A stretch of 47,934 nucleotides of DNA from contig CASFQA010000003.1 of assembly GCA_949296775.1 (NCBI GenBank), forward strand, positions 1 to 47,934, given 5' to 3'. This document shows, in pieces, positions 1 through 17,480 of the stretch; position 1 is the first letter of the stretch; each line of letters opens with the position of its first letter. A model generated the notes under the pieces. That model was not told the DNA's origin, ran no database searches, and saw only the letters and a program-made list of their open reading frames with translations. The stretch is from an uncultured bacterium. Its GTDB lineage: Bacteria > Bacillota_I > Bacilli_A > RFN20 > CAG-826. A program made the translations under genes and the position numbers.

Positions 1-353
1 AAGGGTTTGGCTGTTCGCCAATTAAAGTGGTACGCGAGCTGGGTTCAAAACGTCGTGAGACAGTTTGGTCCCTATCTGTCGTGGGCGTAGGAAGTTTGAG
101 TGGAGTAGTCCCTAGTACGAGAGGACCGGGATTAACAGAGCACTGGTATACCAGTTGTCACGCCAGTGGCATGGCTGGGTAGCTACCTCTGGAATGGATA
201 AACGCTGAAAGCATCTAAGCGTGAAACCAACCACAAGATGAGACTTCCCATTCGTAAGAAGTAAGGGCCCTCCAATGTCAGGAGGTTGATAGGTCAGAAG
301 TGTAAGCACGGTAACGTGTTCAGCTGACTGATACTAATAGCCCGAGGACTTAA
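1..353 (+). rRNA. 23S rRNA, 3' end (5' part outside the window)
   Basis: The sarcin-ricin loop core AGTACGAGAGGACC lies near 114-127. The closing domain VI sequence, including GGTTGATAGG and TACTAATAGCCCGAGGACTTAA, runs to about 353. It is followed by a 130-nt spacer and then 5S rRNA, the usual bacterial order. Only the last ~350 nt are present. The exact 3' end is estimated by resemblance to the Bacillus 23S terminus. Confidence 0.97.
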
Positions 354-453
354 TTTCACTAATTATTTCTTAAACGAAATATGAGTAAGCTAAGTCGGCG
401 CGAAAGTAGATTGCAATTGTGAAGAACGGTTATTCGGTTAGTATCCGGTTTTC

Positions 454-473
454 AGAGAACAGTTGAGTTCTCT
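454..473 (+). other. Hairpin in the 23S-5S spacer
   Basis: AGAGAAC (454-460) can pair with GTTCTCT (467-473) around a 6-nt loop, just before 5S. Its position suits an rRNA processing stem. Nothing else is recognised in the 354-483 spacer. Confidence 0.5.
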
Positions 474-483
474 CTAAGAAAAA

Positions 484-596
484 GTCTGGTGGCGATGGCA
501 CGGTGGGCACACCTGTTCCCATCCCGAACACAGAAGTTAAGCACCGCAGTGGCGATGGTAGTCGGCTTGGCCGGCGAGAGTAGCGCGCCGCCGGGC
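484..596 (+). rRNA. 5S rRNA
   Basis: The internal CCCATCCCGAACACAGAAGTTAAG-like 5S core lies at about 518-541 and a GCGAGAGTAG segment near 574-583. The ends pair as helix I: 484-493 with 587-596 (10 pairs, some G-T). Length about 113 nt is normal for Firmicutes. It follows the 23S end after ~130 nt, so it closes an rRNA operon. Confidence 0.96.
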
Positions 597-666: not shown

Positions 667-2379
667 ATGGCAAAAGTCGGTTATCTTCCTTCCCCCGAGA
701 TGGGGGAAGAGGCGTTTAATGGGCTGCGGAACCATCCTTTATTCGAGCAAGAGGCTCCAGATCCTGTTGCCTGCTCTTCCTTAGACGAGGCGGTGAAGCG
801 GATTCAGAGTGGCGAGCTCGATTATATCCTCTTGCCCTCAAGGACCATCGATAACCACGCCAATTTGGATTTCCTCGGCCTCATCTCCCGCCTTTCGATC
901 GATAACCTGGTGGAGATTGGGCTTTTTACCTGCGAGATCGTCGGATTGGCCCGCACGGTGAGGAAAACCGGCACCGGCTCGCGGTATAAGAATAACCTCG
1001 CCGATAAAAAGGATGAGCCGGTCCTCTCTTTCTTAGAGGGCGAAGGATCGGATAGCCCCGAATCGATTGAGTTCCGCCTTTTCAAGAAGAATGAGTACAA
1101 ACGGTCGCTGCCTCTGCGGATCAAGAATTTCTTCGGCTCCCACCTGACCGCCTCTTTCCTAATCCGCATCTTCTCGGCTTTGGTCTCGGTGGGCATCACC
1201 GCCTTGCTCTTCCTCTCCACCTTCCTCCATATCCTCCCCGAGGCCAATGAGGACGTGATCTCGGCCATCGGGACGGTCTTAGTCGTCATCTTGAACGTGG
1301 TCTTAGGCATGTCGGGGTTCGATGAGGGGAATAAGAACTCGTTGATAACCGGTAAATGGATCTATTATTCCTTCGAGGAACAAAAAGACGGGCTTTCCTT
1401 CGTCCCTCGGGGGCTGAGGCTTCGGGTGGTCGACATCGCCTATAGCAACAAGGAGCTCTCGCTGAATTGCCATTTCGTCGGCGAGGATATCCTTTTCTTC
1501 TCCGCCGATTCCTTCGTCTTTGGCTTAGACCCCAAGGATCGGGTCGGCAAAGGGTTCTACCATTATTCCTCCAACGTCTCCAACAACTCCGGGAAGCGGG
1601 CTGAGGGGAACTGTCAGTTCGTCGGGCAATTGACCAAGAACGGCATCGTCACCATGGATGGCTGGTTCTTCTCCCGCGGCACCAAATTGAGCGGGCGGGT
1701 CCGTTTCTATCGGCTCAGCGAGAAAGACGCGGCCTTGCTCGATAAGTCGCGGAGCTTCTATTCGGTTAAGAAGCCGGCTGAGAAGATCGTCGGCATCTTC
1801 GGGTATCCGGAGTCAAACACCGATCTGGCCTTCCGGCTTTGCGTCAGGCAGGATAAAGACGCCTCCTTCAAGGATTACAAGAAGATCTATTTCGACGACT
1901 TTAAGACGATGTCCCAATATTTGTCCAAGGGCTATATCGATTATTGTTTGGTGCCATCGAAGAATCAGGGAACCCCCTTATCGGCCGTATCCTCTTTTGA
2001 GGGCTTTACCCCCATCAAGCGATTCGACAAACCGATTTTCTATTGTTTGGCCTCGAATCGCGATTTGACCAAAGAGATGTTGGAATCCCCCGACACCGTC
2101 TACATATCGAAGAAAGAAGCCTTGGATCAATGCAGCCTCTTCCTAATGGGCAAGAAGACCAAGGAAGCCAGCTCAACCTCCGAAGCCGCGAAAGCGTTAA
2201 GCGAGACCAATGCCGACTCCTCAACCGTCTCCGTCATCGTTTGCAATGCCGGGGCGGCCCAGAAATATGGGCTGAAATGGTATATGGTTGATGGCAAGGT
2301 CTTTAATCCGAGCGACGCCAAGGCGAATAACGTCACGGAGTTCAGCTTATATAAAGCCCCCGATAAGAAAGAGGAATAG
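667..2379 (+). CDS. Membrane protein: two prephenate-dehydratase-like lobes around a two-TM and beta-rich core
   Basis: A 570-residue protein of unknown function. Residues ~1-105 (start MAKVGYLPSPE; SLDEAVKRIQSGELDYILLP) and ~374-480 (IVGIFGYPES; YLSKGYIDYCLVPS) each resemble a lobe of the prephenate-dehydratase/PBP2 ligand-binding fold. Between them lie two TM helices (~160-190 and ~198-219) and a beta-rich stretch (~229-360) opening with GKWIYYSF. Two TM helices followed by a G-x-W-x-Y beta domain recall the S-2TMbeta/Cap15 nucleotide-receptor family, but this is only a by-eye resemblance. ATG 667 was chosen because the homologous lobe begins there and a -10 box ends 6 nt upstream; the longer reading frame would begin inside the terminator. 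It stands alone between the rRNA operon and the surface-protein locus. Not an enzyme of phenylalanine synthesis as far as can be judged: the dehydratase catalytic motifs and ACT domain are not seen. Confidence 0.85.
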   Translation: MAKVGYLPSPEMGEEAFNGLRNHPLFEQEAPDPVACSSLDEAVKRIQSGELDYILLPSRTIDNHANLDFLGLISRLSIDNLVEIGLFTCEIVGLARTVRKTGTGSRYKNNLADKKDEPVLSFLEGEGSDSPESIEFRLFKKNEYKRSLPLRIKNFFGSHLTASFLIRIFSALVSVGITALLFLSTFLHILPEANEDVISAIGTVLVVILNVVLGMSGFDEGNKNSLITGKWIYYSFEEQKDGLSFVPRGLRLRVVDIAYSNKELSLNCHFVGEDILFFSADSFVFGLDPKDRVGKGFYHYSSNVSNNSGKRAEGNCQFVGQLTKNGIVTMDGWFFSRGTKLSGRVRFYRLSEKDAALLDKSRSFYSVKKPAEKIVGIFGYPESNTDLAFRLCVRQDKDASFKDYKKIYFDDFKTMSQYLSKGYIDYCLVPSKNQGTPLSAVSSFEGFTPIKRFDKPIFYCLASNRDLTKEMLESPDTVYISKKEALDQCSLFLMGKKTKEASSTSEAAKALSETNADSSTVSVIVCNAGAAQKYGLKWYMVDGKVFNPSDAKANNVTEFSLYKAPDKKEE

Positions 2380-2391
2380 GGCCAAAGAAAA

Positions 2392-2425: not shown

Positions 2426-3259
2426 TTATCCTAATCTGCAAGCCCAATCTTCTAGTCCATAAGCAGTGGCGATATGATCGTAGCGCGCTGCGGTGTCGCG
2501 ACAAATTTCTTCTTCGCCTTCACAGGATTCGCTAGAGTCGAGATTTGAGAAATAAGCTCTGACGTCATATCCTAGCTTTAAATACGACTCTTTGGCGGCC
2601 TGCCACTTGTTTTTGATTTCGGTTCGATAGGCTTCAGTTACATTGGTAGGATCGCAAATACTATTGGTTCCGAGCAAGTTTGTGGTGTTGGCCCAAAGAT
2701 TTATCCTCTCATAATGATTGACGGTGGTCCAGTGTTCATCCGACCATAAGTCGATGCATACATTGCCATTATAAGATAAATAATCAGGAATAATCGCGCA
2801 ATTGCCCTTGATTTGACGGCTATATATATTGTTGGATTGACCCCAGCTGCTGTCCCACCCGATATGTCCCTGTGGGTTTTGCCTGGTGATAATCAAGTAA
2901 TCGTATGTTTCAGCAGTGGCAGGGATGGTTGCCTCGTATAAAGTTCGGCCGTTTTCTAGGGTTTTGATTGCTGTAGCGTAATCAGTCCAAACTTCCATTC
3001 CGGTTGCATTGTTGTAGTATCTAACGGCTGTTTTTGCTCCGCTATTCTGCCATCGGTTGTCATCTGTTGAGTCTGGAATTGAAAAGTACAACGTGTTGCC
3101 ACCGACCAAAATTCCCTCTTGCGGCCTCGGCAATTGCTGGGCGGCATTGATCGAATGGTTCTCCGGCGTATTGAGGAGAAGGCTCGAAGTGACGGTGACT
3201 CCCCCTAGGGCGAGGGTAGCCATTGAGACTAGGGTCAATAACTGAGTTTTCGCTTTCAT
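2426..3259 (-). CDS. Secreted protein, probable carbohydrate-binding
   Basis: 277 residues beginning MKAKTQLLTLVSMATLALGG, a signal peptide with a cleavable or anchoring hydrophobic core. The body (~55-190) is rich in W, Y, N and short strands (LVGGNTLYFSIPDS; YDYLIITRQNPQG), as in starch-binding modules. The tail carries a W..A...Y..L segment and AARYDHIATAYGLEDW near residues 258-273; similar RYDxIxxxYG tails recur, from memory, in secreted proteins of gut Bacilli. Start chosen at 3259 because AAGGAG precedes it at good spacing; the longer frame adds a basic, AT-rich leader. It is divergent from the CBM-containing 3755 gene and shares operator-like sites with it, so both probably respond to the same sugar signal. 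Function is inferred; no catalytic motif is seen. Confidence 0.8.
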   Translation of the reverse strand: MKAKTQLLTLVSMATLALGGVTVTSSLLLNTPENHSINAAQQLPRPQEGILVGGNTLYFSIPDSTDDNRWQNSGAKTAVRYYNNATGMEVWTDYATAIKTLENGRTLYEATIPATAETYDYLIITRQNPQGHIGWDSSWGQSNNIYSRQIKGNCAIIPDYLSYNGNVCIDLWSDEHWTTVNHYERINLWANTTNLLGTNSICDPTNVTEAYRTEIKNKWQAAKESYLKLGYDVRAYFSNLDSSESCEGEEEICRDTAARYDHIATAYGLEDWACRLG

Positions 3260-3344
3260 ATTGCAATTCTCCTTTTTGGTATCTCGATACCGGAAATGCC
3301 CCTGTAATCGGTATTTTCCTCTTATTTTCAAGCGATTCAAGTAA

Positions 3345-3374
3345 AATGTAAGGGCTTTCAGAAAGCGCTTACAA
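3345..3374 (-). promoter_or_regulatory. Leftward promoter with two abutting LacI/CcpA-type operators
   Basis: On the minus strand: -35 TTGTAA (3374-3369), 18-nt spacer, -10 TACATT (3350-3345). Two half-palindromic 14-mers cover it: TGTAAGCGCTTTCT (3373-3360, minus) and TGTAAGGGCTTTCA (3347-3360, plus), sharing base 3360. The first fits the cre pattern TGWAARCGYTWWCW. A bound repressor would block RNA polymerase. Expected leader about 78 nt with AAGGAG. Confidence 0.6.
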
Positions 3375-3692
3375 ATTATGGACAAGCGGAGATGGAGGAA
3401 ACTCTGGGTCTGGTCGGGTGTTTTGGTTTAACACGAAAATATTAATGATTTGCTTTTTGTCACTGTCATAAACGATCCTATTCGAAAGTGGTGCCACGTT
3501 CGTTTTGTTTGTCGTGGTTCAACAAAGTTGGGCTTTTAAAGTACGGGAATGATCGAACTTGTCCAAATAATGGGACAAACGTACATCATCGCTATTTTTT
3601 ATATTTTTGTTTTCATCGTTTTTTTCATTCGATTTTCAATAAAAAGATGCGTTTTTCTGCATTTTTACAAATAGAGTTAACTCTAATAATAC

Positions 3693-3721: not shown

Positions 3722-3754
3722 TTGCAACGTTTCAAAGGAGAACGAATAGTAAAA

Positions 3755-5143
3755 ATGAAACACAGAAATCTGATTCTAGGTTTCGCCTTAGCTCTTGGAA
3801 GCCTGGGAGCTATTGGGCTTGGAACCGCGGTCGGCAGCATCGGCACTCCTAATGAGGTTGAGGCGGCTGGCGAAAGCGAAGAAGAGGTCAATAAGCCTTA
3901 TTTCGAGATAGTCGGTGTACTTAAAGGCTATACTGGTTCGACCCAAGATTGGACTCCTGGTGCCGGGATTAAACTCAGCAAGTCCGAACAACGGGAAGAC
4001 GGACACACTTGGTATTATGCCGACATTTCCTTTAGGAAAGACGACCAGTTCAAGGTGGTTTACAATTCCTTTAATGACGATGGCACTATGTCAACTAATT
4101 GGATAGGGGCCAAGAAAGTTAATTTCAACGACGAGCAGATTTGGGGTTATGAAAACGATGGAAACTTCCACGTTGGGGCTGATGGGGATTACCGTTTCTT
4201 TATTCGCGACGATGCCTCCACGGCTTCTGGCGATGAAGGCAAGCAGGAGTTTTATGATATTGCCGATGCGGTAGCCGAATCTTACAAAGTAACCTTGGTG
4301 TTGCCAGATGAGCAAACCAAGGAAGATAAGGCCAGTAGCTTAGCTGAATATAACACCTCTTGGTTCAAGGTCGACGGCTATGTCAATCGCGGCTGGTATA
4401 CCGATTCTGATTTGAAAACCGAATACGTTCCTTCGGTCCCGACCGCTGATTTCACGTTGTACGGCAAATGGGAAACCGCTCCCGCCGATTTGACTGTTTA
4501 TTACGAGGGCGACTTCACCCACGCTTATATTTATTCGTCCGAAGCGTCCTATAGGAACAACACTTGGCCGGGCGTGGCGATGGAGAAACTTGACCGCGCT
4601 TGGGGCACCAATGTTTATAAGTTTGTCGTCGAAGGCGAATATGAAGCGAACATGATTATCTTCAATGACGGCGGCCAAGGAAAACAATCGGCTGATATCA
4701 CTTTGGCTAAAGAAACCGCCGTTTATAACGGTTGGCAAGATGATGAAGGCAACAAGAAAGGTCAGGTTGCCGCCGATTCCGATGACAAACTAGCCGCCCT
4801 CGACTTCATCACCGAGTTCGATACCCTCCGGAAAGATGGCTCGATTTGCTACCTAGTTAACGAAACCGGCCACGAAGATGCCCTCAACAGCATCATCGCC
4901 AAGTATGAAGCCATTCAAAACAAAGCCTTGGTCGATAGTCTTGAGGATGTTGGAGGAGATGCCGACATCGGCACGACTATGGCGATGCTGATCGGCAAGA
5001 AGAACAGCACCAGCGGCATCTACGGCGTCTATGACGTCAACTCCTTCGATACCGCCTGGATCGTCGTCTTGGCTCTGGCTGGGGCCTCGGTCTTGCTTGG
5101 CGGCGCCTTCTTCGTCCTCAAACGGAAGAAAGCCCGTAAGTAA
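3755..5143 (+). CDS. Membrane-anchored surface protein with starch-binding (CBM26-like) module
   Basis: 462 residues. Signal peptide/hydrophobic core at ~5-27. A beta-rich domain follows at ~40-135 (EIVGVLKGYTGSTQDWTPG), then an InlB B-repeat-like module at ~174-240 (VDGYVNRGWYTDSDLKTEY, ending LYGKW), then a CBM26-type starch-binding module at ~246-325 (AYIYSSEASYRNNTWPGV; MIIFNDGGQGKQSADI). A helical C-terminal segment leads to a TM helix at ~432-455 and the basic tail KRKKARK; no LPXTG is seen, so it is probably held by the membrane helix. ATG 3755 begins the signal peptide; AAAGGAG lies 14 nt upstream, an unusually long spacing. Likely to bind starch or maltodextrins outside the cell. The promoter carries an operator in its spacer, and the downstream terminator is at 5161. 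Confidence 0.85.
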   Translation: MKHRNLILGFALALGSLGAIGLGTAVGSIGTPNEVEAAGESEEEVNKPYFEIVGVLKGYTGSTQDWTPGAGIKLSKSEQREDGHTWYYADISFRKDDQFKVVYNSFNDDGTMSTNWIGAKKVNFNDEQIWGYENDGNFHVGADGDYRFFIRDDASTASGDEGKQEFYDIADAVAESYKVTLVLPDEQTKEDKASSLAEYNTSWFKVDGYVNRGWYTDSDLKTEYVPSVPTADFTLYGKWETAPADLTVYYEGDFTHAYIYSSEASYRNNTWPGVAMEKLDRAWGTNVYKFVVEGEYEANMIIFNDGGQGKQSADITLAKETAVYNGWQDDEGNKKGQVAADSDDKLAALDFITEFDTLRKDGSICYLVNETGHEDALNSIIAKYEAIQNKALVDSLEDVGGDADIGTTMAMLIGKKNSTSGIYGVYDVNSFDTAWIVVLALAGASVLLGGAFFVLKRKKARK

Positions 5144-5160: not shown

Positions 5161-5188
5161 GGCGTCATCTTCCCGGTGACGCCTTTTT
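5161..5188 (+). terminator. Terminator fused to the next promoter
   Basis: GGCGTCA (5161-5167) pairs with TGACGCC (5177-5183), then five T. The T-tract ends 2 nt before the -10 box of the next gene. Confidence 0.85.
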
Positions 5189-5196
5189 GCTATAAT
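5189..5196 (+). promoter_or_regulatory. Extended -10 promoter of the 5206 gene (leaderless)
   Basis: TGCTATAAT (extended -10 form) ends at 5196; ATG is at 5206, nine nt later. The -35 region is inside the terminator stem and has no good box, as is tolerated for extended -10 promoters. Confidence 0.7.
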
Positions 5197-5205
5197 GAGG
5201 CCACT

Positions 5206-6390
5206 ATGCAGCAGATTGGATTGGTCAAACTTCGGAGTACCCTCTCCGCCAGCGAGGCGAGCCTTAAAGGCGAAACCGCCGCTTTCTTGGATAAACTCAA
5301 CGCCGATAAACGGTTCGTCTTCGTCAAGCCTAAGGGCCAATACCCGACCCTTTTCTTGGTCTTGACCGGGGGATCGGAAGAATACTTCCTTGATTTATAT
5401 GCCAAGCATCGGCCACCTTATCTAATCATGCCGACGGGGGAGAGGAATTCCTTAGCCGCCTCGTTGGAGATCATGGCTTTCCTAAAAAGAAAAGGGCTCC
5501 CGGCCTATTTGCTATACGGATCCGATCAAGCCTCGATGCTGAAGGAAGCCGTTAACGCCTATAACGCCTTATCCTATCTTCGCTCGAGCCGGTTAGGGGT
5601 TATCGGCGGCTCCTCTTCTTGGCTTATCGCCTCGAAAGTCGATCCGAAGGCGGTCAAGGCCAAACTCGGGGTCAGCCTTATCAACGTCCCGATTAAGGAG
5701 GTGCTTGGCTATTACGATCAGCATTTGCTTTCCGATGAAGGGCTGCTTACGCGATTCGAAAGCAAGACCCGGCGAAAAGAGGAGCTGCGGGACGCCCTTT
5801 ATGTTTATGGGGCGTTGAAGAAGGCGGTGGCCGCCCATTCCCTCGATGGCTTGACCATGAAATGCTTCGATTTGATCTCCGCCCGGCAAGTCACTGCCTG
5901 CTTGGCCTTCGCTTTATTGAATGAAGAGGGGATCGTCGCCGGCTGCGAAGGGGATATCCCCTCAGCCCTGACCATGATGATCGCCTACGCTTTGACGGGA
6001 GCCGCCCCTTTCATGGCCAACCCGGCGAATATGGACGTCGAGGCCAAAGAGGCGGTCTATGCCCATTGCACCTTGCCTTTGTCGATGGTCAAGGATTATT
6101 CCCTAGCCACCCATTTCGAGTCCGGTTTGTCTTTCGCTTTGCGGGGGCAATTGGACAAAACCGAAATCACGGCCATCAAGTTAGCCCCGGATTTATCCTT
6201 CATCCGGGCGATCGAGGGGAGGATCATCGCCAATCCCGCCGAAGCGCGGCTATGCCGAACCCAGATAAAAGTCCGCTTCGAGGAGGATATCGTCCCGTTG
6301 CTGCAAAATCCTTTCGGCAACCATCTTATTTTCGCTTATGGGCGCCATAAGGCGGAAATTCAAACCTTGGCATCCTTTTTAGGCCTTTAA
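5206..6390 (+). CDS. L-fucose/L-arabinose isomerase-family protein
   Basis: 394 residues. The first half is a Rossmann-like lobe (LFLVLTGGSEEYF; SRLGVIGGSSSWLIASK) and the second half holds GIVAGCEGDIPSALTMMIAY and FMANPAN, typical of the isomerase-like family that also contains L-fucose isomerase-related proteins. Conserved acidic and His positions (CEGDIP; HCTLPLSM) are where such enzymes bind a divalent metal. It probably acts in the cytosol on a sugar or sugar phosphate; the substrate cannot be told from sequence. ATG 5206 was chosen because the TATAAT box ends 9 nt upstream; the longer frame starts inside the terminator. It is monocistronic, next to the starch-binding locus. Confidence 0.8.
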   Translation: MQQIGLVKLRSTLSASEASLKGETAAFLDKLNADKRFVFVKPKGQYPTLFLVLTGGSEEYFLDLYAKHRPPYLIMPTGERNSLAASLEIMAFLKRKGLPAYLLYGSDQASMLKEAVNAYNALSYLRSSRLGVIGGSSSWLIASKVDPKAVKAKLGVSLINVPIKEVLGYYDQHLLSDEGLLTRFESKTRRKEELRDALYVYGALKKAVAAHSLDGLTMKCFDLISARQVTACLAFALLNEEGIVAGCEGDIPSALTMMIAYALTGAAPFMANPANMDVEAKEAVYAHCTLPLSMVKDYSLATHFESGLSFALRGQLDKTEITAIKLAPDLSFIRAIEGRIIANPAEARLCRTQIKVRFEEDIVPLLQNPFGNHLIFAYGRHKAEIQTLASFLGL

Positions 6391-14312: not shown

Positions 14313-15639
14313 ATCACTAACCGACCGTTTCCAGCTCTTGTTCAAGAAGCTGCGGGGCCAAACCCGGCTGAGCGAGTCCAACATGGACGAGATGCTCAAG
14401 GAGATCCGGGTCGCCTTATTGGAGGCCGACGTCAACTTCAAGGTCGTCAAGTCCTTCGTCAATGACGTCAAGGAGAAAGCCATCGGGCAGGACGTCTACG
14501 CGAAAGTCAACCCGAGCCAGATGGTCGTCAAGATCGTCCATGACGAGATCGAATCATTGCTCGGGGAAGAGCAAAGCGACATCGAATACGTCAAAAACGG
14601 CTTGACCGTCATCATGCTCGTCGGCTTGCAGGGGACCGGTAAGACCACGACCGCCGGGAAGCTGGCCAAAATGATGAAGGATAAGCTAGGCAAGAAAGTC
14701 ATGCTCGGGGCTTTAGACGTCTATCGTCCGGCCGCCATCGACCAATTACGGACCCTTTCCGCCGCGGTCGGGGCCGGTTTCTTCTCATCGTCCGGCGATC
14801 CGGTGAAGCTGGCTGAGCAGGCGAAAGCAAAAGCCTTGTCGGAAGGCTATGACGTCTTGCTCCTCGACACCGCCGGCCGACTCCAAATCGACGATAAGCT
14901 GATGAAGGAGCTCCAGGATATCAACCACGCCGTCCATCCCAACGAGGTGCTGCTCCTCGTCGACTCGGCGGCGGGCCAAGACGCGGTCAACGTCGCCAAC
15001 GCCTTCAACGCCGACCTCCGGCTTTCGGGCATCATCCTTTCCAAACTCGACGGCGACGCCAAAGGCGGGGCCGCCCTTTCGATCAAATACCTGACCGGCC
15101 TCCCCATCAAGTTCGCCGGCATGGGGGAGAAGATGGACGATCTGACCGTCTTCCATCCCGATCGGATGGCCGACCGGATCCTCGGGATGGGCGACATCGT
15201 CACCTTGGTCGAGAAAGCCAAAGACGCGATCGACGAGAAAGAGGCGGAGAAGGAAGCGAAGAAGATGATGGAGGGGGAATTCACCCTCGACGACATGCTC
15301 CGCCAGATGAAGATGGTCAAGAAGATCGGCTCCCTCGGGGCCATCGCCAAGCTGATCCCCGGGATGCCGCGATTGAGCGATGAGCAAAAGGAGATGGCCG
15401 AGCGGGAGATGAAGGTGTTCGAATCGATCATCAATTCCATGACCCCCTATGAACGGCGCCATCCCGATTGCCTGCGCTTCTCCCACAAGAACCGGATCGC
15501 CAAAGGGTCAGGGCTCACCAACGCCGACGTCAACAAGGTGCTCCGGAAATACGAGCAGTCGAAGCAGATGATGAAGCAGATGAAGCAATACGCGAAGTCG
15601 GGCAAGATGCCGCCGGGCTTCGGGGGCTTCGGGAGGTAG
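14302..15639 (+). CDS. ffh: Signal recognition particle protein Ffh
   Basis: 445 residues, usual length. N domain, then G domain with GLQGTGKTTTAGKLA, DVYRPAAIDQLR, DTAGRLQIDDKLM and SKLDGDAKGGAALS, then a Met-rich M domain (LDDMLRQMKMVKKIGSLGAI; MMKQMKQYAKSGKMPPGF) that binds signal sequences and SRP RNA. Overlaps ylxM by 11 nt. In Bacillus rpsP follows; here a membrane protein gene begins 2 nt after the stop. Confidence 0.97.
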   Translation: MAFESLTDRFQLLFKKLRGQTRLSESNMDEMLKEIRVALLEADVNFKVVKSFVNDVKEKAIGQDVYAKVNPSQMVVKIVHDEIESLLGEEQSDIEYVKNGLTVIMLVGLQGTGKTTTAGKLAKMMKDKLGKKVMLGALDVYRPAAIDQLRTLSAAVGAGFFSSSGDPVKLAEQAKAKALSEGYDVLLLDTAGRLQIDDKLMKELQDINHAVHPNEVLLLVDSAAGQDAVNVANAFNADLRLSGIILSKLDGDAKGGAALSIKYLTGLPIKFAGMGEKMDDLTVFHPDRMADRILGMGDIVTLVEKAKDAIDEKEAEKEAKKMMEGEFTLDDMLRQMKMVKKIGSLGAIAKLIPGMPRLSDEQKEMAEREMKVFESIINSMTPYERRHPDCLRFSHKNRIAKGSGLTNADVNKVLRKYEQSKQMMKQMKQYAKSGKMPPGFGGFGR

Positions 15640-15641
15640 TT

Positions 15642-17480
15642 ATGGCCGAGGAAGTGCTGTTTAAGCCGAAAGAGCTCTATACCAAGCAATTAAAGGACCA
15701 ATACCATCAAGCGGCCATCGAGTATTACGAAGGGCTTGAGAAGGCCGCCCACACCGATTTGGCGGCCAATAAGCTCCACGTCGCCGACTACAACAAGAAA
15801 CAGGCAGCCGCGAACAAGAAACAGGCGGAGCTATCCTCGACCAAGACCAAGACGACCATCTGCTTAGTCGCCTTCATCCTTTTGCTGATCGCCGGGGCCA
15901 TCGCCCTTATCTATTCTTTCGTCGACGTCTTCAATTGGGTCTCCTTCCTAGTCGGCCTTTTGCTGCTTGCCGGGGGGATTGGGCTCATCTTCGTCTATAA
16001 GAACCTCAAGCAGACCGGGGCCGAGCAATCGCGCCGGCTCGCCAAGCTGCAAGAGGCGGCGGAGCAGGCCCTGCGGACCTGCTATGCCGATATGGCGGCT
16101 TTGAACCGCTCCTTCGACTGGAACGCCCCCCTCCACGTGATGGAGAAAGCGACCCCGATCATCGATTTGGACCCGCGGTTCACCCCCGAACGGCTTTCGA
16201 TGCTGATGGATAATTACGGACTGGGCGAGGAATTGAGCGAGGACGTCTCGGTCCTCGGCGTCCTTTCCGGGCGAATAAAGGGCAATCCTTTCCTATTGGA
16301 AAGGACGTTGTCCCGGCAGATCGTCAGCAAAGTCTACCATGGCTCCTTAACCATCAGCTGGACCACCTATTCCCGCGATTCCGAAGGCCGGAGCTATCCG
16401 GTCACCCATACCCAGACCTTGACCGCCTCGGTCGCCCATCCCGCCCCGGAATTCATCAACAACACCAATCTGATTTACGGCAACGACGCCGCCCCCCACC
16501 TTTCCTTCACCCGGGGGCCGTCGAAAGCCAGCCGGATGGAGCCGAAGGAGCGGCGGAAAGCCATCGACAAATTCCGGAAGGAATTGGCTAAGAAAGCCGA
16601 GAAATCGATCGGGACCGACCATCCTTTCACCCCGATGGGCAATGATGAGTTCGAGTGTTTGTTCAACGCGCTCGACCGGGATAACGACGTCGAGTTCCGA
16701 CTGCTCTTCACCCCTTTGGCCCAGCAGAATATGGTCGATTTGCTGGAGGATCCCGAACCCTATGGCGACGATTTCAATTTCTACAAGCGGAAGAAGATCA
16801 ACGTCATCGCCTCGACCCATTCCCAATCCTTCGATTACTCGGCCGACCCGAACAATTTCATCGGCTACGACGGGGCGGAGATGAAGGAACGGTTCGTCGC
16901 CTATTGCGACTCCTTCATCCGTTCGCTCTTCTTTGACCTCGCGCCTTTGCTTTCGATCCCTTTGTATCAGATGCATAAAAGCCGGGATTATATATACAAA
17001 AACACCTATCCGCGGAATATAACCTCCTTTGAGCAGGAAGCTTTGGCCAATGGCTTAAGCCCCGAGACCTTCCGCCCCCGCACCGCCGACCCGACTGTCC
17101 CCTCGATCCTCAAGGTCCATCAGAAGCAGAAGGAGGGCAAGTCGGATTTGGTCGAAGTCGAGGCCACCGCCTTCGAGACCTATCGGATGGTCGATTACGT
17201 CCCCGTCATGGGCGGGGATGGCCGTTCCCATAACGTCCCGGTCCCCTGGATCCGTTACGAAAAGGTCAGCAAGGTCACCCCGATGGCCATCAAGGAAGTC
17301 GGGAAGGATCGATATGGGATTGGCGAACTGGTGAAGAACAACCAAGGGTTGAACAACTTCTTAACCCAGTTCTCCTACCGTTATGAACGGGGGCTATTGG
17401 CCTTCGCCTCCGACGAACTCCAATCGGTCGACGATCAGGCCTTAAGCGGCTATTTCGCCGATAAAGACAACAAAAAGTGA
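15642..17480 (+). CDS. Two-TM membrane protein with coiled coil, LemA neighbour
   Basis: 612 residues, family not recognised. Residues 1-65 are helical and charged (YHQAAIEYYEGLEKAAH; NKKQAAANKKQAELSS). Two TM helices follow at ~71-92 and ~100-121, then a helical segment with AKLQEAAEQALRTCYADMAA and a large soluble domain (~165-612) without a known motif. GGGAGGT (15631-15637) is well placed before ATG 15642; the longer frame upstream only overlaps ffh. It lies 2 nt after ffh, and the LemA gene is next on the same strand after a pseudogene. Proteins pairing with LemA are often membrane proteins, so a joint role at the membrane is plausible but inferred. Confidence 0.85.
   Translation: MAEEVLFKPKELYTKQLKDQYHQAAIEYYEGLEKAAHTDLAANKLHVADYNKKQAAANKKQAELSSTKTKTTICLVAFILLLIAGAIALIYSFVDVFNWVSFLVGLLLLAGGIGLIFVYKNLKQTGAEQSRRLAKLQEAAEQALRTCYADMAALNRSFDWNAPLHVMEKATPIIDLDPRFTPERLSMLMDNYGLGEELSEDVSVLGVLSGRIKGNPFLLERTLSRQIVSKVYHGSLTISWTTYSRDSEGRSYPVTHTQTLTASVAHPAPEFINNTNLIYGNDAAPHLSFTRGPSKASRMEPKERRKAIDKFRKELAKKAEKSIGTDHPFTPMGNDEFECLFNALDRDNDVEFRLLFTPLAQQNMVDLLEDPEPYGDDFNFYKRKKINVIASTHSQSFDYSADPNNFIGYDGAEMKERFVAYCDSFIRSLFFDLAPLLSIPLYQMHKSRDYIYKNTYPRNITSFEQEALANGLSPETFRPRTADPTVPSILKVHQKQKEGKSDLVEVEATAFETYRMVDYVPVMGGDGRSHNVPVPWIRYEKVSKVTPMAIKEVGKDRYGIGELVKNNQGLNNFLTQFSYRYERGLLAFASDELQSVDDQALSGYFADKDNKK

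Follow-up and report, generated by a model that had tools for sequence, protein, structure and literature searches.

The window (the whole stretch of 47,934 nucleotides that was analysed) opens with the 3′ end of a 23S rRNA gene and a 5S rRNA gene, and a protein-coding sequence starts on the plus strand about 70 bases past the latter. The longest mechanical open reading frame begins at position 607; the N-terminus of the relatives coincides with the residue encoded by the ATG at 667, and the protein was therefore taken as 570 amino acids. The reading frame 667–2379 is real and conserved and is under purifying selection: six intact homologues were found (31–94% identity) and dN/dS was about 0.12 for the gene. 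The following features were assigned (PDT, prephenate dehydratase; TM, transmembrane; residue numbers refer to the 570-residue protein):

1–596, plus strand: 3′ end of 23S rRNA (1–357) and 5S rRNA (485–596), matched with Rfam, directly upstream of the gene and outside it.
667–2379, plus strand: whole coding sequence, in the order PDT lobe, two TM helices, Cap15-like barrel, PDT (conserved start, purifying selection).
667–936, plus strand: N-terminal PDT-like lobe 1, residues 1–90 (hhalign), in which SGELDYILLPSR corresponds to the PDT motif D-Y-x-x-VP-x-x-N.
937–1062, plus strand: variable loop replacing PDT lobe 2, residues 91–132, with zero invariant residues, pLDDT 30–41 and a low-confidence loop in the model at 93–131.
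1063–1089, plus strand: strand IEFRLFKKN, residues 133–141, located where PDT has its closing T-R-F strand (strand in the model, position judged by eye).
1144–1224, plus strand: TM helix 1, residues 160–186 (hydropathy 2.26, helix in the model).
1249–1314, plus strand: TM helix 2, about residues 195–216 (hydropathy 2.53, helix in the model).
1351–1716, plus strand: eight-stranded Cap15-like beta barrel, residues 229–350 (GKWIYYSF ... GWFFSRGTKLSGRVRFYR), by structural match.
1780–2367, plus strand: full two-lobe PDT-like domain, residues 372–567, with TRF changed to TEF (PF00800; hhalign 99%; 3mwb, Z 18.4).

In an earlier sequence-only reading, PDT pieces had been placed at both termini around a two-TM and beta core. 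This arrangement was supported by Pfam, hhalign and fold matching, and the architecture (PDT-like pieces at both ends, two TM helices, Cap15-like barrel) very probably holds. Of the PBP2/PDT lobes claimed for the two ends, the C-terminal one proved to be part of a full PDT domain, whereas the N-terminus carries a single lobe and no full PBP2 domain. The C-terminus was matched to the Pfam PDT family PF00800 with an E-value of 1.4e-10 and 41.7 bits (gathering cut-off 25.2), and Pfam PDT was matched in all family members. Comparison of the C-terminus with ordinary PDTs of the same order and class by hhalign gave 173 columns at 99%, and PDT crystal structures led the fold search with Z between 13.4 and 18.4, other PBP2 proteins lying at about 10; LysR effector domains were numerous among the structural neighbours. 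For residues 1–90, hhalign against ordinary PDTs gave 90% with an E-value of 1.7e-6, and the profile–profile score was 44.2 compared with a maximum of 19.2 among 300 column shuffles. Matches of the N-terminal lobe to DUF4026 and to a phage sheath were below the cut-off and were discarded. As lobe 2 of the N-terminal copy is replaced by a loop, the copy consists of lobe 1 only, and the two lobes of the earlier reading become a half domain at the N-terminus and a complete domain at the C-terminus.

The C-terminal PDT domain keeps the Asn of VPxxN, S-T-x-x-A-A (S-x-S-x-A-A), QC and N-x-T-x-F including the Thr of TRF. The Arg of TRF is replaced by E, T or K in all seven aligned homologues (T-E-F, T-T-F, T-K-F), and in VPIENS the Glu that precedes the Asn is replaced in six of the seven. 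In EqPdt, T223A abolished activity (PMC11980547). The protein stops after the PDT domain, with neither an ACT domain carrying the ESRP motif nor chorismate mutase. Chorismate synthase was found in 0 of the 8 gene-bearing genomes by a search that was positive in 14 of 14 control genomes, and the gene encodes the sole PDT domain in its eight genomes; for these two reasons catalysis on prephenate is unlikely. The domain shares with PheA (PF00800) a score above the gathering cut-off, the fold and most motifs, and differs from it in T[ETK]F, in the lack of ACT, chorismate mutase and chorismate synthase, in the fusion to a membrane protein and in the presence of half a domain as an N-terminal copy. 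The C-terminal domain is probably not an enzyme, and, given the lost TRF Arg, the missing ACT domain and chorismate synthase and its standing as sole PDT domain, it would most likely be used for binding rather than for phenylpyruvate synthesis. An active PDT, or a related dehydratase or lyase that is tethered to the membrane and acts on an imported substrate, would account for the retained Thr, Asn, S-T-x-x-A-A and Q-C motifs and for GqqA (PDT-like, quorum-quenching acylase by its PDB title) as a close structural neighbour, but is very unlikely in view of the Arg lost in 7/7 homologues, the lack of a substrate pathway and of an ACT domain, and the position of PDT as the fast-evolving part of the protein.

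Hydrophobic segments were located at residues 165–183 and 197–215, both helical in the model and directly before the soluble domain. Structure models were built on 7–8 sequences (mean pLDDT 69) and contained the PBP2 lobes as well as two helices followed by eight strands that form a barrel, with GKWIYYSF opening strand 1; the two TM helices and the beta-rich domain from GKWIYYSF onwards had been read correctly from the sequence. When Foldseek candidates from the PDB were realigned, the core model, built on eight sequences, matched the Cap15 structure 7n34 best (Z 13.1, rmsd 2.5, 108 of 108 residues), followed by Cap15 7n35 (Z 12.9), and the best unrelated barrel reached Z 11.2; Cap15 was absent among the best 50 matches of plain Foldseek against the PDB and came first only after this realignment. 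In BFVD the top match was an S-2TMbeta effector (E 7.8e-6), and as the alignment spans 233 columns, the TM part is included in the match. PF18153 (Pfam Cap15) was matched in none of the eight members at E-values up to 10, a PF18153 profile search of the window's own genome (G000) found nothing, and PADLOC, NCBIfam and Pfam named nothing in the core. Profile–profile comparison of the core with a reference set of 15 S-2TMbeta proteins by hhalign gave a weak alignment (135 columns, E-value 0.0037, score 26.1) that was equalled by 3 of 300 partial shuffles and stays in register between G-x-W and the G-[WY]-[FY]-F-[TS] strand. Because PF18153 was unmatched and the sequence link is weak, the core is classed, on its modelled fold, as Cap15-like and was not filed as a Cap15 member. 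The likeness to S-2TMbeta (Cap15) proposed earlier thus stands for the fold, with Cap15 the best PDB neighbour and S-2TMbeta the best in BFVD, but sequence profiles alone give no placement in the Cap15 family. Cap15, the S-2TMbeta effector of CBASS, has in common with the protein a pair of TM helices ahead of an eight-stranded barrel, the fold along the complete crystal structure (108 residues), and two similar motifs, G-x-W at the start and the strand G-[WY]-[FY]-F-[TS]; Cap15 measures about 210 amino acids compared with 570 here, where PDT flanks the core on both sides, no cyclase is found in the genome and PF18153 is unmatched. Residues 226–350 are invariant in the family at 44 of 125 positions (35%), compared with 16% in the C-terminal PDT domain and 4% in the TM region.

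No CD-NTase gene lies near the locus, as had been stated from the sequence, and no SMODS CD-NTase was found in the whole genome. SMODS CD-NTase was likewise found in 0/8 gene-bearing genomes, so the locus does not qualify as CBASS, and mCpol was found in 0/8, so it does not qualify as Panoptes. A DAC c-di-AMP synthase was found in seven of the eight genomes and not found in the remaining one (G009). DAC enzymes make 3′3′-c-di-AMP. With DAC present and dedicated cyclases absent, cellular c-di-AMP would be our best guess at a candidate ligand, should the barrel prove to bind cyclic dinucleotides. OptE/2TMbeta of Panoptes has the core architecture in common with the protein and both may be restrained by a ligand; Panoptes, however, is a two-gene operon with mCpol, and here neither is found and PDT pieces are added. 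A guard of the Panoptes kind can be envisaged, in which c-di-AMP would keep the barrel inactive, its removal by a phage sponge or phosphodiesterase would lead to firing, and the PDT pieces would be accessory regulators or decoys. The Cap15-like barrel as the most constrained part of the protein and the occurrence of DAC in 7/8 genomes next to the lack of SMODS and mCpol are consistent with such a guard, as is the inhibition of OptE/2TMbeta by 2′3′-c-di-AMP (PMC12657218, PMC12657230). It is nevertheless improbable, since the studied 2TMbeta responded only partially to 3′3′-c-di-AMP (PMC12657230), DAC was not found in G009 and the PDT parts are left unexplained.

The family is rare: among 279 genomes of a single uncultured Bacilli order it was found in 8, the host contig records being labelled uncultured Bacilli or Firmicutes. 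In the genus of the window, 3 of 31 genomes carry the gene (the window's own, plus copies 94% and 79% identical); elsewhere in the window's family there is one copy in another genus (61%) and one more distant copy (31%), and another family of the order has three copies, of which two are intact (33%) and the third is disrupted by frameshifts. The broken copy (genome G109, L048 9517–11262, between uppS and frr) no longer reads through in a single frame, stops and frameshifts having split it into several, and is either a pseudogene or an assembly error (genome 65% complete). Outside the order, the class sample (395 genomes) gave ordinary PDT enzymes or nothing, and the core profile found no relative in the phylum sample (392 genomes), whose sole weak match, in G323, was rejected as TM similarity only. 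No relatives were found in IMG/VR with the full or the core alignment, and none in plasmid and phage records.

Gene locations differ between genera and there is no constant partner gene. The surroundings are mostly housekeeping in six of the eight genomes, for example between uppS and frr, near whiA and MoxR, or near mraZ (genes named by eye). In G271, a defence-like cluster (L044 13677–18211) of AbiLi and AbiLii (RloB), a Schlafen group 3 helicase and a MazG-like protein lies approximately 2 to 7 kb from the gene; in G135, the gene comes after a HicB-like antitoxin, with a DUF2779 protein following one gene later. Within the window, four other reading frames were noted: a secreted protein without a Pfam match at 2426–3385 (minus strand), partly common to G028 at the same place; a secreted protein at 3722–5143 that contains a CBM26 starch-binding module and a Listeria-Bacteroides repeat and has a TM anchor at its C-terminus; a 404-aa protein without a Pfam match at 5176–6390, upstream of Asp23 and FakA, with synteny kept in three species; and a 670-aa reading frame without a Pfam match at 15468–17480, within a housekeeping stretch. 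The housekeeping neighbours in most genomes would suit a metabolite receptor, the PDT pieces sensing an aromatic or other amino-acid-like nutrient and the core signalling to a transporter or enzyme with no toxicity. Lacking chorismate synthase, the hosts must import aromatic amino acids, and the PDT/PBP2 fold binds ligands, its structural neighbours including many LysR effector domains. Many genomes would have such a need, though, and the gene is confined to 8/279 genomes of the order and 3/31 of the genus; together with the lack of a constant partner gene and the recombination of the C-terminal PDT domain described below, this makes a housekeeping receptor a rather unlikely explanation.

Divergence was compared along the gene. 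Between G000 and G028, dN was 0.026 in the barrel and 0.30 in the C-terminal PDT domain at similar dS (1.2 and 1.4). The flanking genes (the 404-aa gene and FakA) join G009 with G028 (dS 0.30), whereas in the C-terminal PDT domain dS was 0.10 between G000 and G009 and 1.36 between G009 and G028; the DNA of window positions 1586–2380 is 95–99% identical to G009, the flank 82.6%. As this domain groups G000 with G009 while the neighbours group G009 with G028, a tract has moved between lineages, and the sequence comparison indicates that the 3′ half of the gene was exchanged recently between species. Moving tracts of this kind are common in conflict genes; proximity to the rRNA operon, a target of recombination, could also cause the pattern, and the faster change of the C-terminal PDT domain may reflect weaker constraint alone.

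The explanation that we favour, at slightly less than an even chance, is a single-protein, ligand-gated effector of the inner membrane with PDT-derived sensors, perhaps acting against phage; its mechanism is inferred as follows. Both PDT pieces and the barrel would be cytosolic. The effector would consist of the barrel together with the TM helices and, when switched on, would multimerise and break the membrane or depolarise the cell, by analogy with Cap15 or OptE. The two proteins disrupt the membrane on multimerising, one with and one without cyclic dinucleotide (PMC12657218, PMC12657230), and membrane disruption by Cap15 was described in staphylococci (PMC10686824). The PDT-derived pieces would act as a switch in cis that responds to a bound small molecule or to a protein of foreign origin, and the nearly invariant barrel would bind a ligand that stays constant, the best candidate being c-di-AMP made by the cell itself. 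The biological role would most likely be anti-phage defence of the abortive type or a comparable function in conflict. The effector reading is supported by conflict-like evolution, namely the patchy distribution, the differing locations, the AbiL and Schlafen neighbours in G271 and the fast, recombining C-terminal PDT domain; against it stand the models built on few sequences, the weak sequence link to PF18153, unrelated barrels at Z 11 and the mostly housekeeping neighbours in 6/8 genomes. A more specific version, which is doubtful, is a one-gene immune receptor in which decayed PDT (one full and one half copy) would serve as the sensor, diversify rapidly and gate a Cap15-type effector directly, without a cyclase.

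Predicted 2TM-CARF and 2TM-SAVED effectors of mCpol operons (PMC12657218) likewise combine a two-TM element with a soluble ligand-binding domain; in the present protein, by comparison, the Cap15-like barrel is retained and the PBP2-like PDT domains are extra. In the part of the literature searched, no report of PDT combined with CBASS or S-2TMbeta was found, and the findings suggest a type of sensor and effector, combined in one gene, that has no described precedent. Described Cap15/OptE-type effectors are driven by cyclic nucleotides from partner cyclases. If the favoured explanation is true, a Cap15-type effector can be wired to other signals within one polypeptide, without such cyclases, and the PDT domain would have a non-metabolic use in bacteria that lost chorismate synthesis.
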